Position numbers and translations under genes: made by a program. A DNA stretch of 64,000 nucleotides from an uncultured Desulfomonile sp. (GTDB lineage: Bacteria > Desulfobacterota > Desulfomonilia > Desulfomonilales > Desulfomonilaceae), in contig CAJBEZ010000036.1 in assembly GCA_903952205.1 (NCBI GenBank), forward strand, positions 1 to 64,000. The letters run 5' to 3'. Below the pieces are notes generated by a model. The model did no database searches, was not told the DNA's origin, and saw only the letters and a program-made list of their open reading frames with translations. Below, one piece after another: positions 14,586 through 20,993 of this stretch (position 1 is its first letter; each line of letters opens with the position of its first letter).

Positions 14586-16013
14586 GTGAAAAACCACGGA
14601 TATTTCAGTCTTATCAGCCTCGGTTGTCCAAAGAATCGGGTTGACAGCGAAAAAATCCTTGCCGCACTCATGGCTGAAGGATTTGAGCACACTCAGGAAC
14701 AGGAACTGGCTCAGATCATTGTGATCAATACTTGCGCGTTTATCCAGCCGGCGGTTGAGGAGTCTATAGCGACAATCCTGGACAGTTCAGCGGTAAACCC
14801 CGATGCCTATCTGATAGTCGCAGGTTGCATGCCGTTACGCTATGGGGAGTCGTTAAAGGATTTGTTACCTGAAGTTGATCTCTTTCTGAGGCCTTATCAG
14901 TTAGGTATGATTTCGGATATTATCGGCAAGCCCGCTCTTCGGCGTCCAGCAACCCCTTCATCCTCATATTCGAAACCTGGAATCTATTTACCCGACTCTA
15001 CCAATCCCGCCAATCTCCTTAAGACCTCAGAGATACGTGCCGACTCCGGTTTTATCGTCTGCCCGGGGGGGGATAACAGAGTCCTATCGACCCCGGGTTA
15101 CGCGTATTTAAGAATTTCCGATGGATGCAACCATGGCTGTAAATTTTGCGCCATACCTTTAATAAGAGGTAGGTTAAAGAGCGAAACCATGGACGATCTG
15201 GTCCGTGAAGCGTCCGGACTTGTAGATTTTGGAGTGAAGGAAATTGTTTTAATTGCGCAAGACCTTACATCTTATGGCCGAGATCTCGGCATGAAGAATG
15301 GTCTCATTCAATTATTGGAAAAGCTGGAATTGATAAGCGGGATCGAATGGGTACGGCTGATGTACCTTTATCCCAGCGGAATAACACCGGAACTGATACA
15401 CATGATCAGGGATTCCGACAAGATACTGCCTTACGTGGATGTGCCCATACAACATATTTCGGAAAATGTTCTCAGATCGATGGGTCGCCCATGGAGAGAC
15501 CTGGAAATTCGTAAGATGATCGAATCGTTCAGGTCTCAAATTCCTGAAATCGCAATTCGAACCACACTGATGGTTGGGTTCCCGACTGAAACAGAAGATG
15601 ATTTCACCATGCTAACGGACTTTGTGAGACAGTCTGAACTCGATCATGTGGGTGTTTTTTCATATTTTCAGGAAGAAGGTTCTCCCGCTGAGAAACTCGG
15701 TGACCCAATACCAACGAAAATCAAGAATGCTCGAGCACGGAAACTCCGGTCCATGCACGCAACCTTCATAAAGAAAAAGATGAAAAAAAGAGTGGGTTCC
15801 ATAGAAACCGCAATAGTGGAGGGATTTTCTGAACAAACAGAGTTGCTTTTACAAGGGAGGATCTGGGATCAGGCCCCTGACATTGACGGCAAACTTTATA
15901 TCACGGATGGTGAGGCTTCTGTCGGAGAAATCGTCAAAGTGTTGATCACCGAAACCAATGGCGTTGACATCTTCGGGGAGATTAAAAGATCGGAAAACCA
16001 ATCTGTAGGCTGA
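14586..16013 (+). CDS. rimO: Ribosomal protein S12 methylthiotransferase
   Basis: RimO is a radical-SAM enzyme that methylthiolates Asp of ribosomal protein S12. The N-terminal domain has the three cluster Cys in 'SLGCPKNRVDSE', 'INTCAF' and 'VAGCMPL'. The radical SAM motif is 'CNHGCKFC' (about residue 186). A TRAM domain ends the protein. 'GCPKNRVDSE' is the RimO form, not MiaB. It is 475 residues long, somewhat more than usual because of an insert before the radical SAM domain (about 120-165). The start is GTG 14586. Confidence 0.93.
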   Translation: MKNHGYFSLISLGCPKNRVDSEKILAALMAEGFEHTQEQELAQIIVINTCAFIQPAVEESIATILDSSAVNPDAYLIVAGCMPLRYGESLKDLLPEVDLFLRPYQLGMISDIIGKPALRRPATPSSSYSKPGIYLPDSTNPANLLKTSEIRADSGFIVCPGGDNRVLSTPGYAYLRISDGCNHGCKFCAIPLIRGRLKSETMDDLVREASGLVDFGVKEIVLIAQDLTSYGRDLGMKNGLIQLLEKLELISGIEWVRLMYLYPSGITPELIHMIRDSDKILPYVDVPIQHISENVLRSMGRPWRDLEIRKMIESFRSQIPEIAIRTTLMVGFPTETEDDFTMLTDFVRQSELDHVGVFSYFQEEGSPAEKLGDPIPTKIKNARARKLRSMHATFIKKKMKKRVGSIETAIVEGFSEQTELLLQGRIWDQAPDIDGKLYITDGEASVGEIVKVLITETNGVDIFGEIKRSENQSVG

Positions 16014-16036
16014 TCATTCGAGAAAACACGATCCAC

Positions 16037-16092
16037 CGTGAAAGAGTGTCGTTTCACGCTATCTTGGTATACAAGAGGCGTTGTGGAACGCC
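16037..16092. terminator. Two hairpins between converging genes
   Basis: Stem cgtgaaa/tttcacg spans 16037-16058 and stem ggcgtt/aacgcc spans 16077-16092. They lie between the end of rimO (+) and the end of the small secreted-protein gene (-). Neither has a strong T run, so they may be weak bidirectional terminators or RNA-stabilising stems. Confidence 0.4.
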
Positions 16093-16125
16093 CCTTGATT
16101 GATCTATGTCATTAAATCCAACTGA

Positions 16126-16404
16126 TTAATAGAGGTTCTTCATGCGGGTCTTGGGCGGAGCTTTTTTAGTTGGTTTAGCAGATTGTTGAGCATCCTGAGT
16201 TTGATGTTGCTGATTCGCCGCATAGTAGTCAGCTTGCGGATACCCGGTGGAATTATAATAAGGCGAATAGGAATCTGTGGAATAGGAACCCGTTGATCCC
16301 CCTGACCAGGAGGGGAAACAACCCGCTCAACTGGCCACGGCGCTGCCGGTGAGCGCCAGTGTCGAAATCATCATGGCCAAAACAACTATAATTCTTTTTC
16401 CCAA
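16126..16404 (-). CDS. Small secreted protein with in-frame TGA (possible selenoprotein or nonsense mutant)
   Basis: AGGAGG (16415-16410) lies five bases before TTG 16404. The frame gives a clear signal peptide (MGKRIIVVLAMMISTLALTG, then SAVAS), a TGA at codon 26 (16329-16327), then AGCFPSW, a Ser/Tyr/Gln-rich stretch and a basic end 'PPKTRMKNLY' before TAA, 92 codons in all. After the TGA the RNA can fold: GUUG/CAAC at the base, a U bulge, a UCCCCU/GGGGGA stem, and an 8-base loop containing GGU about 23 bases from the TGA, similar in layout to bacterial SECIS elements. Read with selenocysteine, the residues would be U-A-G-C. A mutated lipobox (L-A-G-C) is the main rival reading. The function is unknown. 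Confidence 0.55.
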
Positions 16405-16451
16405 ACCTTCCTCCTTGATTGAACCCCAGAATGAACGAGAGTTAGATCTTG

Positions 16452-16471
16452 TTAAAATCGTGTGATTTTAA
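16452..16471. promoter_or_regulatory. AT-rich inverted repeat in divergent spacer
   Basis: A perfect 8-bp inverted repeat (ttaaaatc, loop gtgt, gattttaa) is followed on the plus strand by nine T. It lies upstream of both the small secreted-protein gene and the activase gene. It could be an operator, a 5' leader stem, or a terminator of plus-strand read-through. Confidence 0.35.
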
Positions 16472-16709
16472 ACTTTTTTTTTGCTTTCGTATACATAAAT
16501 TATTGAATGAACGCCGGCGTTAACATCTACAGAAATTTGCCAAACGCCTGGATAGTCATTACCGTTGACTTAATTCAATTGATGGGATTTACCTGACGCG
16601 ACTTGACGGTCTGAATTGGAATGAATTAAAGTTATAAATTGCTTTAGGCTGTTTTGCGCCCCACATAAACAGGAAAATATTAATAATTTTGTGACATGGA
16701 GATGAACCG

Positions 16710-19700
16710 ATGGAAGCGCTTGGTATGTGTCTGGGGGCTTCAACCCTGAGTATTTGTCGAGTTAAACGTGACGAAAAAGGTATTTCAGTAATAGACGCCT
16801 CGACTATAACTCATGAGGGGAACCCCAGAAAAACCCTGCTGGATGCCCTCGAGAAAATACCTGACATAAGGAACCTTCCCCTTGCGGTGACCGGACGGAA
16901 ATTCATTAACTTTATAAGATTAACTACGATTTCGGAACCTGAAGCGGTCGAAATGGCCGCCCCTTTCTCTTTGCCTGACAATAGCAAATACAGGGTCGTA
17001 GTAAGCGCCGGCGGGGAAACTTTCATGGTTTATCATCTGGACGAAGACAACAAGATCCAGGCGATTCAAACTGGGAACAAGTGCGCTTCAGGAACAGGGG
17101 AGTTTTTCCTTCAGCAAATAGGAAGGATGAATCTGGAGCTTCAGGATGTTGAAAAATTAGGGGTCGCCGAGCACCCGCACAAAGTCTCCGGCCGCTGTTC
17201 GGTTTTTTGCAAGAGTGATTGCACGCACGCTTTGAACAAGGGAATTCCCAAAGATCAGGTAGTAGCGGGCCTTGCGATGATGATGGCCAGCAAGATTGTT
17301 GAGCTACTCAAGAAACTGCCTAAAAAATCTGTAGCGCTTATTGGTGGTTCATCTCTCAACAAGACAATGATTCACTATCTTAAACAGGAAATAGAGGATT
17401 TATTAATTCCCGAACAGGCGCCGTATTTTGAGGCCATGGGCGCTGCTATATGGGCACTGGACAACACAACAGTAAATTATTCGGGAGCAGATGAAGTCTA
17501 TGAAGAAAAAGGCTCAGCATTCTCTTATCTCCAACCTCTGGAAAATTTCCGCCACATGGTCAGCTTCAAGGACCGCCCCAGGGGCGTACCCGTAAACGGT
17601 GATACAGTCATTCTGGGACTCGATGTTGGTTCGACTACGACCAAAGGCGTGATAATGAGGAAGAGCGACAAGGCTATACTAGCGGCTGATTACCTCAGGA
17701 CAGACGGCGACCCTGTTGGAGCTTCCCGGAATGTATATCGAAGCCTACTGGAACAAAACAACTGTGAACTAAACATAGTTGGTCTGGGTGTTACGGGTTC
17801 AGGAAGACAGATCGCGGGCCTACACGCAATGACGGATGGCGTGATCAACGAAATTATCGCTCATGCGGCGGCAGCCGTCCATTTTGATAGAGAGGTCGAC
17901 ACAATTTTTGAAATTGGGGGGCAGGACGCGAAGTACACTTACATCACGAACGGTGTTCCAAGCGATTATGCCATGAATGAGGCTTGCAGCGCTGGGACAG
18001 GATCATTTCTTGAAGAGTCGGCAAAAGAAAGTCTTGGTCTCAAGGTTACCGAAATCGGCCCGGTGGCTTATTCTGGATCTAAACCACCAAATTTTAACGA
18101 CCAATGCGCAGCATTTATCGGCTCTGATATAAAAAACGCCGCACAGGAGGGAATCCCTGTAAATGATATCGTCGCGGGGCTCGTTTATTCAATTTGCATG
18201 AATTACTCGAACAGAGTCAAAGGGAACAGGCCGGTCGGGAAAAAAGTCTTCATGCAGGGAGGCGTGTGCTACAACGAGGCTATTCCAGCGGCTATGGCCG
18301 CTTTGACCGGCAAGGAAATAGTTGTTCCACCGGAACCGGGACTGATGGGAGCATTTGGCGTGGCGCTGGAAGTTGATCGAAGATTGAATCTTGGACTTAT
18401 GCATGAGGCCAGGTTTGATCTCAAACAGCTGGCAAATCGCGAAGTTATTTACAAGAAGCCTTTTATTTGCGGAGGGGGAAAAGAGAAATGCGACCGTCGC
18501 TGCGAAATAGCCCGCATAGAACTCGAGGGGAAAACATATCCATTCGGTGGAGCATGCAACAGGTATGTCAACCTGATCAAGAACTTACAGTTTGAGACCG
18601 AGAATCTGGACATGGTGGACTATCGTCAGAAGTTGGTGTTTGAGTCCCTGGAGGAGGAAAAACCATCTGATGGCAGGCCCGTCATCGGAATGAACAGGTC
18701 GTTTCTTATAAACACTTATTTTCCGCTTTTTAAAAGTTTTTTTACGGAACTTGGATACCGGGTCGCTCTTCCTGACAAATTGGACCCTGAAGGCAGTGAT
18801 CAGCAGGGAGCCGCCTTCTGCTTCCCGGTAGAACTTTCTCACAGTTTCTTTTCCAATCTCATTAAAAAAGACCCGGACGTTTTTTTTCTTCCGCATGTTC
18901 GAGGTATTCCGACCGATGAAGAAAATCCAAACACATGTACATGTGTATTTGTTCAGGGGGAGGGCTTCTACCTGTCGAGCGCATTTGACCAGGCGCTGAC
19001 TAAAAAGGTCCTCCGCCCTTTCCTGGACATGAGTGGAGGCTTGCAGTCCTGCAAGGAAGGCTTCGTCGGTATGGCGCTCGAACTTGGCAAGAGTAAATCT
19101 GAAGGAGTCAGGGCTTTCGAGGCCGCTGTCAAGGCTCAAAACGAATTCAAGACCCGACTTAGAGCCAAGGGAGAGGAGATCCTCAGAAAAATTGAAGCGT
19201 CTCCAGAAACGACCGCCATTGTTCTTTTTGGAAGACCTTACAATTCATTTGCGGCGGAAGCAAACAAGGGTATCCCCGTTAAACTGGCCTCAAGAGGATA
19301 TCGTATACTGCCATTTGACATGCTTCCCTATGAAGATCAATCCATGGACGACGAAAACACCATGTATTGGTCAATGGGCCGAATGATTCTCAAAGCCGGC
19401 CGTTTTGTCAAAAAGCATCCACAGCTTTTTGGGGTTTTCATAAGCAACTTCTCGTGTGGACCCGACTCATTCGTTGTTGGTTATTTCAGAGACGAAATGG
19501 GAAGAAAGCCCTCTTTGACCCTGGAGCTTGACAGCCATACGGCGGATGCCGGTCTTGAGACAAGAATTGAGGCGTTTCTCGACATCGTCCACTATTACAG
19601 AGAACTTGAGGCGCAAAGAAAATTTGCGCCCCCACGCAGGAAATTTGAGGCGGCCCATACAGGAATGGTCGACGGAAAACCTTGCGTAATAACTCCTGAT

Positions 19701-20993
19701 GGAAAATCCTACCCGCTGACTCATCCAAATGTGCGTGTCGTTCTTCCCGCTATGGGGCGATTCGCTCATCAGGCTCTCGTGCAAACATTCGGAAAGGTCG
19801 GTATCAACGCCTATGGATTACCACCTGCAGATGAAGAGGTATTGAAAATTGGTCGCGGGAATTCATCCTGCAAAGAGTGTCTTCCTCTCCAGACCACTGT
19901 TGGATCTATGCTCAATTATTTCGACAAGATTAGGCCGTCAGGCGAGATTACGGCCTACTTCATGCCCGGCGCAGCGGGTCCTTGCCGTTTTGGTCAGTAC
20001 AATGTCTTTTCACGACGTTTGATCGAGAGACACGAAATCCCAAATGCTGCAGTCCTGACCCTGAATGCCTCCAATGGTTATCTGGGTCTTGGGGACAAAT
20101 TTACACTGCCGGCATGGAGAGCGATTCTGATCGGCGACGTGATGTACGAAATCTGGTCAACTATCATGGCTGCGGCCGAAGACCGTGAGCAGGGGCTGGA
20201 GATTTTCTTTAGGGAATGGAACAGTCTTGTGAATGTTATTCACAAGTCATGGAAGGACATCAAGCGCCAGATAAGTTCATCTGCTGTTGAACTTTCAAAG
20301 ATACCTTTGAAGGCCCCTTATGACGACATTCCCAAAATATCCCTGATCGGTGAGATTTACGTTCGGAACGACCCTATCTCTCTTCAAAAACTGGTGGAGA
20401 AGATGTCCGACCGTGGCTTCATTGTCAGAACATCTCAAACAAGTGAATGGATCAAGTACGTCGACTGGCTCATAAAGACAGGGATTGAGGGCGATTCCAG
20501 GGATGTTCCGTTCTGGATTCGCTACTTTGTAAAAAAACATTTTGACAAAAAGGTTAGGAAACTGTTTGAACCTTCAGGATTGTTTTTTAAGGAAATACTT
20601 GAAGTTGGTGACCTGATAAAGGCCGGGGAGAGATACATATCACCGAAACTTACAGGTGAAGCCATCCTTACGGTTGGAGCGGCCATACATGAAATCCTCC
20701 ATCCTTCTTGCGGTATCATCTCAATCGGGCCATTTGGATGCATGCCTACAAGAGTTGCGGAAGCCATCCTTTCAGAAAAATTTACAGTGGGCGAAAAAAT
20801 TGTTTCAATGGGAAATAATGGGTCTAGTCCTGATCTAAATAGCCCTATATTCAAAAATCCTGGGAGAAAATTGCCCTTCCTCGCTATAGAGACAGACGGC
20901 AACGCTTTCCCTCAGATTATTGAGGCCAGAATTGAGGCTTTCTCTCTTCAGGCGAAAAGACTTCACGAAAAAATGATGGCTGAAAGGCATTAG
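16710..20993 (+). CDS. Multidomain acyl-CoA dehydratase activase (BcrA/BadF-type)
   Basis: The 1427-residue protein carries two ASKHA ATPase domains of the BcrAD/BadFG family. The first (about 1-260) has a degenerate phosphate loop, 'CASGTG' and 'GRCSVFCKSDC'. The second (about 295-560) has an intact 'LDVGSTTTKGV' loop, 'CSAGTG' and 'DQCAAFIGSD'. A DUF2229-type region follows with 'CGGGKEKCDRRCE', then a C-terminal half with 'NSSCKECLPLQ' and 'SIGPFGCMPTR', resembling 2-hydroxyacyl-CoA dehydratase-like domains. Activases use ATP to push an electron into dehydratases or aromatic-CoA reductases through a [4Fe-4S] cluster. No separate dehydratase subunit is adjacent, so the substrate is unknown. 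GGAGATGA precedes the ATG. Confidence 0.85.
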   Translation: MEALGMCLGASTLSICRVKRDEKGISVIDASTITHEGNPRKTLLDALEKIPDIRNLPLAVTGRKFINFIRLTTISEPEAVEMAAPFSLPDNSKYRVVVSAGGETFMVYHLDEDNKIQAIQTGNKCASGTGEFFLQQIGRMNLELQDVEKLGVAEHPHKVSGRCSVFCKSDCTHALNKGIPKDQVVAGLAMMMASKIVELLKKLPKKSVALIGGSSLNKTMIHYLKQEIEDLLIPEQAPYFEAMGAAIWALDNTTVNYSGADEVYEEKGSAFSYLQPLENFRHMVSFKDRPRGVPVNGDTVILGLDVGSTTTKGVIMRKSDKAILAADYLRTDGDPVGASRNVYRSLLEQNNCELNIVGLGVTGSGRQIAGLHAMTDGVINEIIAHAAAAVHFDREVDTIFEIGGQDAKYTYITNGVPSDYAMNEACSAGTGSFLEESAKESLGLKVTEIGPVAYSGSKPPNFNDQCAAFIGSDIKNAAQEGIPVNDIVAGLVYSICMNYSNRVKGNRPVGKKVFMQGGVCYNEAIPAAMAALTGKEIVVPPEPGLMGAFGVALEVDRRLNLGLMHEARFDLKQLANREVIYKKPFICGGGKEKCDRRCEIARIELEGKTYPFGGACNRYVNLIKNLQFETENLDMVDYRQKLVFESLEEEKPSDGRPVIGMNRSFLINTYFPLFKSFFTELGYRVALPDKLDPEGSDQQGAAFCFPVELSHSFFSNLIKKDPDVFFLPHVRGIPTDEENPNTCTCVFVQGEGFYLSSAFDQALTKKVLRPFLDMSGGLQSCKEGFVGMALELGKSKSEGVRAFEAAVKAQNEFKTRLRAKGEEILRKIEASPETTAIVLFGRPYNSFAAEANKGIPVKLASRGYRILPFDMLPYEDQSMDDENTMYWSMGRMILKAGRFVKKHPQLFGVFISNFSCGPDSFVVGYFRDEMGRKPSLTLELDSHTADAGLETRIEAFLDIVHYYRELEAQRKFAPPRRKFEAAHTGMVDGKPCVITPDGKSYPLTHPNVRVVLPAMGRFAHQALVQTFGKVGINAYGLPPADEEVLKIGRGNSSCKECLPLQTTVGSMLNYFDKIRPSGEITAYFMPGAAGPCRFGQYNVFSRRLIERHEIPNAAVLTLNASNGYLGLGDKFTLPAWRAILIGDVMYEIWSTIMAAAEDREQGLEIFFREWNSLVNVIHKSWKDIKRQISSSAVELSKIPLKAPYDDIPKISLIGEIYVRNDPISLQKLVEKMSDRGFIVRTSQTSEWIKYVDWLIKTGIEGDSRDVPFWIRYFVKKHFDKKVRKLFEPSGLFFKEILEVGDLIKAGERYISPKLTGEAILTVGAAIHEILHPSCGIISIGPFGCMPTRVAEAILSEKFTVGEKIVSMGNNGSSPDLNSPIFKNPGRKLPFLAIETDGNAFPQIIEARIEAFSLQAKRLHEKMMAERH

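Follow-up and report, generated by a model that had tools for sequence, protein, structure and literature searches.

The window, a stretch of 64,000 nucleotides from a Desulfomonile sp. contig, carries a small gene whose frame is broken by a single in-frame TGA. Read from 16404 to 16126, the sequence runs TTG GGA AAA AGA ... GCC AGT TGA GCG GGT TGT ... CTC TAT TAA. The TGA is preceded by 25 codons with a hydrophobic stretch and followed by 66 codons and then TAA. With selenocysteine (Sec) at the TGA, the product would be MGKRIIVVLAMMISTLALTGSAVAS-U-AGCFPSWSGGSTGSYSTDSYSPYYNSTGYPQADYYAANQQHQTQDAQQSAKPTKKAPPKTRMKNLY. The initial annotation had described a Shine-Dalgarno sequence, a TTG start, a signal peptide and a frame of 92 codons with one TGA at codon 26, and all of these were recovered on the minus strand. 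The other 11 members of the family described below likewise have a Shine-Dalgarno-like sequence upstream of the start chosen for them. The features of the locus are collected in Table 1. No telling feature was obtained in a promoter and terminator scan, and a comparison of positions 15900 to 16750 with Rfam gave nothing at E up to 1. TGA is still used as a stop in this DNA, where the convergent neighbour, which we take to be RimO-like, terminates in TGA.

Table 1. Features of the putative selenoprotein gene and its neighbours in the window
Feature	Position	Strand	Remarks
Putative selenoprotein gene, complete	16126..16404	(-)	TTG start to TAA stop; 92 codons plus stop; TGA at codon 26 as predicted Sec codon
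Shine-Dalgarno sequence AAGGAGG	16410..16416	(-)	5 bases upstream of TTG
Signal peptide, predicted	16333..16404	(-)	Cleavage A-V-A / S-U by the -3/-1 rule; AlphaFold helix 2-20
U-A-G-C (UxxC) motif, predicted	16318..16329	(-)	TGA (predicted Sec) at 16329-16327; U, G and C invariant in 12/12
Putative SECIS hairpin, family register	16298..16313	(-)	CCUCCU-GGUC-AGGGGG in window copy; AGGAGG in most relatives
Coding sequence 3' of predicted Sec codon	16129..16326	(-)	AGCFPSWSGG, then Tyr/Ser/Gln-rich part and Lys-rich tail; indicated by purifying selection and composition
Radical SAM gene, presumably RimO-like	14586..16013	(+)	Convergent neighbour; Pfam UPF0004, Radical_SAM, TRAM_2
BadF/DUF2229 CoA-enzyme activase gene	16710..20993	(+)	Divergent neighbour; 1427 aa

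Relatives of the gene were sought by a protein search of 60 related genomes, 20 of which gave matches at E up to 0.1. Twelve loci, at E up to 0.00115, were judged convincing and all other matches weak. These 12 are spread over 11 of the 60 genomes; one of them is a second copy in the genome of the window (G000, C105:214669-214929), and TGA occupies the same codon in every one of the 12. The members share 29-90% protein identity with L029, the own-genome copy; the residues U26, G28, C29, P31, S32, W33, G35, Y46, Y50 and K81 (numbering on L029) are invariant. In L018 the frame contains another TGA, directly beyond the position at which its relatives terminate. Within the family Desulfomonilaceae (G000-G017, n = 18) the gene is present in 11 genomes and was not found in the remaining seven (G006-G008 and G013-G016, 81-99% complete). 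None of the other 24 class genomes searched contained a member. In a sample of 395 genomes of the phylum, the gene was detected in five, all inside Desulfomonilaceae; the sole matches outside the family, L147 (with TAG) and L148, were weak and were judged to be chance. A scan of genome_contigs (84,980 species) with a pattern for the TGA form gave 76 stretches among the matches listed, of which eight were members (L091, L097, L098, L108, L117, L120, L126 and L136) and 68 were discarded by the length of the open frame and reading of the frames shown. These eight are the same DNA as eight of the 12 known loci, so that no new member was gained; the other four loci fit the pattern too, but were absent among the matches listed. 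The eight come from different isolates, assigned to Desulfomonile (three), Syntrophaceae (two) and Deltaproteobacteria (three). Judged by these searches, the members appear to be confined to one family, probably the Desulfomonilaceae.

The sequence beyond the TGA was compared for signs of selection. The dN/dS ratio after the TGA was 0.06-0.42 in eight of ten chosen pairs, the other two being saturated and not computable, which indicates that the codons 3' of the TGA are under purifying selection. Synonymous positions are fixed in a part of this region. The third bases of Gly28, Cys29 and Phe30, just before the stem, vary among the members. Pro31 is CCC and Ser32 is TCC in all 12, and each of the 11 members that have Ser34 encodes it by TCA; these bases are part of the hairpin CCUCCU-GGUC-AGGAGG.

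The relatives share an invariant CCCTCCTGG..AGG element after the TGA at the spacing of bacterial SECIS elements. The initial annotation had proposed a SECIS-like stem with a U bulge and a GGU-containing loop about 23 bases from the TGA. The GGU loop was retained, although it starts in the window at the 20th base after the TGA, i.e. 19 bases beyond UGA; the U bulge was not, the conserved stem being an uninterrupted CCUCCU/AGGAGG around GGUC. The window copy carries one A-to-G change that turns one stem pair into U-G. Folded alone, this copy has its minimum-energy structure in another register than the family hairpin, and in the family register it reaches -7.0 kcal/mol. In L015, S-G-G is replaced by G-G-S, yet a stem is kept in another register (CCCTCC-TGG-GGAGGG). 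The published bSECIS model, as given in the accessible part of PMC13188914, has a loop of 3-9 nt with G in the first two bases, a stem of 4-16 bp, a spacing of 16-37 nt and an energy of at most -7.5 kcal/mol. Loop size, loop G, stem and spacing in the family register lie within these limits, and the energy limit is reached as an uninterrupted hairpin by nine of the 12 copies and missed by the window copy, L018 and L019.

Hairpin stability was rejected as evidence in its own right. The window hairpin had a z-score of -0.25 against dinucleotide shuffles (66 bases), and when the window copy was recoded synonymously 2000 times, 27% of the versions were at least as stable (4-35% across the copies). 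Because its stability is ordinary by both comparisons, the window hairpin taken alone is weak evidence. No compensatory base-pair change was found in the family stem. In these comparisons the signal above chance is the conservation, not the stability of the hairpin. A family RNA model, built from 12 copies with the window copy among them, scored 60.9 bits at the gene, and its second-best position in the window reached 9.9 bits. Across the class it found 12 members at E up to 7e-8, and none of the four weaker matches that were read is this gene.

The initial annotation had suggested a search for selA, selB, selC and selD, and all four are present in the genome of the window. SelB scored 398.6 bits, SelA 595.2 bits and SelD 364.2 bits, and a tRNA-Sec with anticodon UCA scored 70.3 bits. 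In the relatives only tRNA-Sec was searched for; it was over the cut-off in 19 of 21 genomes searched, a set that does not include G017. The two genomes G003 and G004 carry the gene and gave no tRNA-Sec over the cut-off, in assemblies that are 82-83% complete. The selD gene of the window's genome (L057, G000:C10:29947-30867) itself has one in-frame TGA and probably encodes a selenoprotein, a known form of SelD.

Selenocysteine at the TGA, as first suggested from the window, was thus borne out by the TGA in all 12 loci, the conserved hairpin core and the Sec genes in the genome, and the gene very probably encodes a small exported selenoprotein with Sec at codon 26. We infer from the conservation that the hairpin after the UGA would recruit SelB with Sec-tRNA, so that UGA is read as selenocysteine. 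The initial annotation had weighed this against a nonsense mutation in a lipoprotein lipobox (L-A-G-C); more generally, the TGA could be a mutation or an assembly error in an ordinary gene for a small secreted protein or lipoprotein. Lipoboxes follow the consensus [LVI][ASTVI][GAS]C, and Gly-Cys at -1/+1 is indeed invariant in all 12 members. However, position -3 of such a lipobox is the TGA codon throughout and never Leu, position -2 is Phe or Trp in two of the 12, a -3/-1 cleavage site is present in all of them, and a Cys-containing paralogue that reads E-A-A-C-A-C has no lipobox at all. The same TGA recurs in loci from 11 assemblies, purifying selection continues beyond it, and none of the 12 loci has Leu, Ser, Gly or Trp at this codon. 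Since members come from different isolates, it is not credible that they share a single assembly error. The conserved TGA is therefore very unlikely to be an error, and the relatives already refute the mutation reading, with next to no probability left to it. It is also conceivable that the UGA is recoded without Sec, by readthrough with a near-cognate tRNA that yields an extended form of a short peptide. Such readthrough would likewise maintain selection on the frame beyond the UGA, and the unexceptional stability of the hairpin would agree with it. It is at odds with the complete Sec machinery in the genome, with a hairpin core at SECIS spacing and invariant synonymous positions, with the absence of any sense codon in place of the TGA in the 12 loci, and with the UxxC motif, which is common in the selenoprotein table of the 2026 review (PMC13188914, in its accessible part). 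We consider this alternative highly improbable.

With Sec decoding as the preferred reading, the properties of the exported product were derived. Signal peptidase cleavage sites obey the -3/-1 rule, and a predicted cleavage one residue before Sec fits this rule in all 12 members, with A, V or S at -3 and A, G, S or C at -1. Therefore, signal peptidase I would leave a peptide starting with [S/G/A]-U-x-G-C, in which Sec is, by this rule, residue 2 of the predicted mature chain. A UxxC motif at the mature N-terminus had been anticipated in the initial annotation, and the invariance of U, G and C in the family agrees with it. The predicted mature chain comprises 55-69 residues with one Cys besides Sec. 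It contains 10-16% Tyr, 7-23% Gly and 11-24% Ser and ends in a Lys-bearing tail; the pI, calculated with Cys substituted for Sec, is 8.6-9.6. AlphaFold2 with nine sequences gave a mean pLDDT of 52.9 and a pTM of 0.20, and the only helix, residues 2-20, is the signal peptide. No fold, thioredoxin-like or other, was predicted for the mature peptide. Export would thus leave a cationic, Tyr-rich and often Gly- and Ser-rich peptide that is apparently disordered, and the exposed N-terminal Sec-Cys pair would be its active group.

An exchange of the TGA for a Cys codon in relatives had been proposed as a further check. No such exchange was seen in a close relative, and no close Cys homologue was found; Cys was encountered in one remote paralogue. 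A pattern with TGY at the Sec codon followed by [ASF]GCFPSW, which covers Cys forms of this kind only, gave 78 stretches in genome_contigs and five in viral_contigs, with no confirmed relative among them. The remote paralogue, L070 in G017 (...PSAGEAACACSGIGVSNGYYANPAYGGYGPGYGYATRTQVQSVKPKPKKSKKGAPKQQPAAK), matched the family model at E 3.7e-8 and has no internal stop. As aligned, it carries Cys at the Sec position, a second Cys two residues on and a similar tail, and it is devoid of GCFPSWSGG. Used as a query against 42 genomes of the class, L070 retrieved, apart from its own locus, three Sec members with E between 3.9e-8 and 0.002 and a weak match, L153, which was rejected after one frame had been read and no such gene was seen. 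Homology of L070 to the Sec family is likely rather than certain, because the match leans on composition. Since this paralogue needs no SECIS element and lacks the motif, the comparison suggests that GCFPSWSGG is in part retained for the sake of the RNA, and the SECIS element may prescribe some of the motif.

To place the family among known proteins, the members were compared with existing models and published selenoprotein lists. NCBIfam gave no fitting model for the 12 members (best E 0.045), and the best Pfam match of the window protein, DUF1459, remained under the cut-off at E 0.5. The 2026 review counts 119 prokaryotic selenoprotein families, and no small exported protein with this motif was seen among them in its accessible part, where families lacking an NCBIfam or Pfam model could be set apart by their description only (PMC13188914). 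The accessible part of a 2022 review (PMC9312934) contains no such family either. A literature search on selenoproteins and Desulfomonile or Desulfomonilaceae, with most subscription journals outside its scope, did not yield a description of the family. It would accordingly be a new selenoprotein family, for which the Sec assignment is strong and any function tentative.

Like bacterial SECIS-directed selenoproteins such as formate dehydrogenase, the family combines a UGA with an in-frame hairpin, a loop starting with G and the SelB/tRNA-Sec machinery, and it shares UxxC with many of them. It differs in that it has no known domain or predicted fold, that Sec is the predicted second residue of an exported peptide, and that a close Cys homologue, the usual support, was not found. 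With SaoC, SaoB, MbdU, TsoA and selenoprotein ArsM the family has in common that Sec lies near Cys and that there are links, tentative ones here, to metal(loid) resistance; the accessible part of PMC13188914 names Sec as a possible metal ligand in SaoB, SaoC and UXX-star. The motifs given there differ from that of the family, and no NCBIfam match was better than the value stated above. The UGSC, UGC and HUIPC motif selenoproteins in the table of that review likewise have U and C close together in a short motif, whereas the motif here is U-x-G-C-[FS]-P-S-W and no NCBIfam model matched. ExtJ (NF040942, from a selenite/tellurite reduction operon) is also a small exported protein, and the Cys paralogue adjoins ExtKL. 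Membership in ExtJ was rejected: two of the 12 members were weak matches at E up to 1, the better of them being the best NCBIfam match, and on one member the ExtJ model reached 13.5 bits (cut-off 52.5) over residues 3-25 only. ExtJ was over the cut-off in none of 42 genomes, and the nine weaker matches, seven of which were read, do not overlap a family locus by their coordinates. According to the accessible part of the deep-Sep study (PMC12013277), discovery independent of SECIS elements relies on Cys homologues being known for nearly every selenoprotein, and the new candidates of that study were themselves checked for Sec- or Cys-containing homologues. Because no close Cys homologue was found, methods based on such homologues would tend to miss this family. 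Selenoproteomes may therefore hold more small exported members than have been counted. Sec is unusually placed here, at the N-terminus of a secreted peptide that seems to be disordered, and the chemistry of an N-terminal Sec is testable with a synthetic or recombinant peptide.

The genomic neighbourhoods were inspected for hints to the function. Seven genomes (G000-G005 and G012) have the gene flanked by BadF and the RimO-like gene, the latter being on the same side in all seven; the contig of G001 carries only the end of the RimO-like gene. BadF slots were located in 10 of 12 genomes searched, and of these only that of G004 holds the gene according to a filter script applied to 586-1500 bases upstream. 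The member in G009 lies by an outer-membrane/RND efflux set, that in G011 by DUF362 and an activase-like gene, and the Sec member of G017 beside a hydrolase and another protein. These neighbourhoods, the RimO/BadF setting and that of the G010 member next to a release factor gene do not suggest a metal(loid) role. The second copy in the window's genome and an ArsR gene (65.9 bits, cut-off 55) are transcribed divergently. Behind the ArsR gene come genes for a Cys-rich protein, for a DsbD-like permease (34.7 bits with the ArsG model, whose cut-off of 200 it does not reach) and for an arsenite methyltransferase, which scored 369 bits; this cluster occupies 5714-8363 of L155 (G000:C105). The Cys paralogue in G017 lies between the ExtKL cytochrome gene and arsC-like, arsR and acr3 genes, the arsC-like gene scoring 137.9 bits, under the cut-off of 174.3. 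The ExtKL multiheme cytochrome gene itself (L165, G017:C616, 10183-11454, minus strand) has one in-frame TGA (HRIPDG-TGA-PSKT), in agreement with the known ExtKL selenoprotein family. ArsR-type matches number five in G000 (four over the cut-off) and seven in G017. By a rough estimate, chance adjacency is uncommon, at about 0.2% per gene in G000 for about 4500 genes, but the association was noticed post hoc and concerns only two of the 13 copies.

Because arsenic genes stand beside these two copies, a metal(loid) role is hinted at, and our preferred reading of the function, put forward tentatively, is that outside the cytoplasm the peptide binds arsenic or other soft metal(loid)s or undergoes redox reactions with them. 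The family could possibly represent a lineage-specific class of exported, fold-free selenopeptides in which Sec at mature residue 2 serves as a ligand for soft metal(loid)s outside the cytoplasm. A selenoprotein of the same structure might instead serve in extracytoplasmic thiol-disulfide exchange or as a tyrosine-rich cell-surface protein, and this is quite plausible, falling only a little short of probable. UxxC is listed as a common redox motif in the accessible part of PMC13188914, the Tyr content and the Lys-bearing tail fit a surface protein, and 11 of the 13 copies have no adjacent arsenic genes among the nameable neighbours. Against it stand the low pLDDT, with no thioredoxin-like or other fold predicted, and the two copies at arsenic genes.

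Two further observations concern the neighbouring genes. In L159 (G012:C235, 8274-12584), BadF/DUF2229 is encoded in two frames of 623 and 794 aa, compared with the single long frame in the window; the split may reflect a frameshift, recoding or an error of sequencing. The member in G010 (L157, G010:C1, 7461-8405 and 8493-8741) directly follows a release factor gene with PCRF and RF-1 domains, presumably prfB-like. This release factor would compete at UGA, and the adjacency is probably due to chance.
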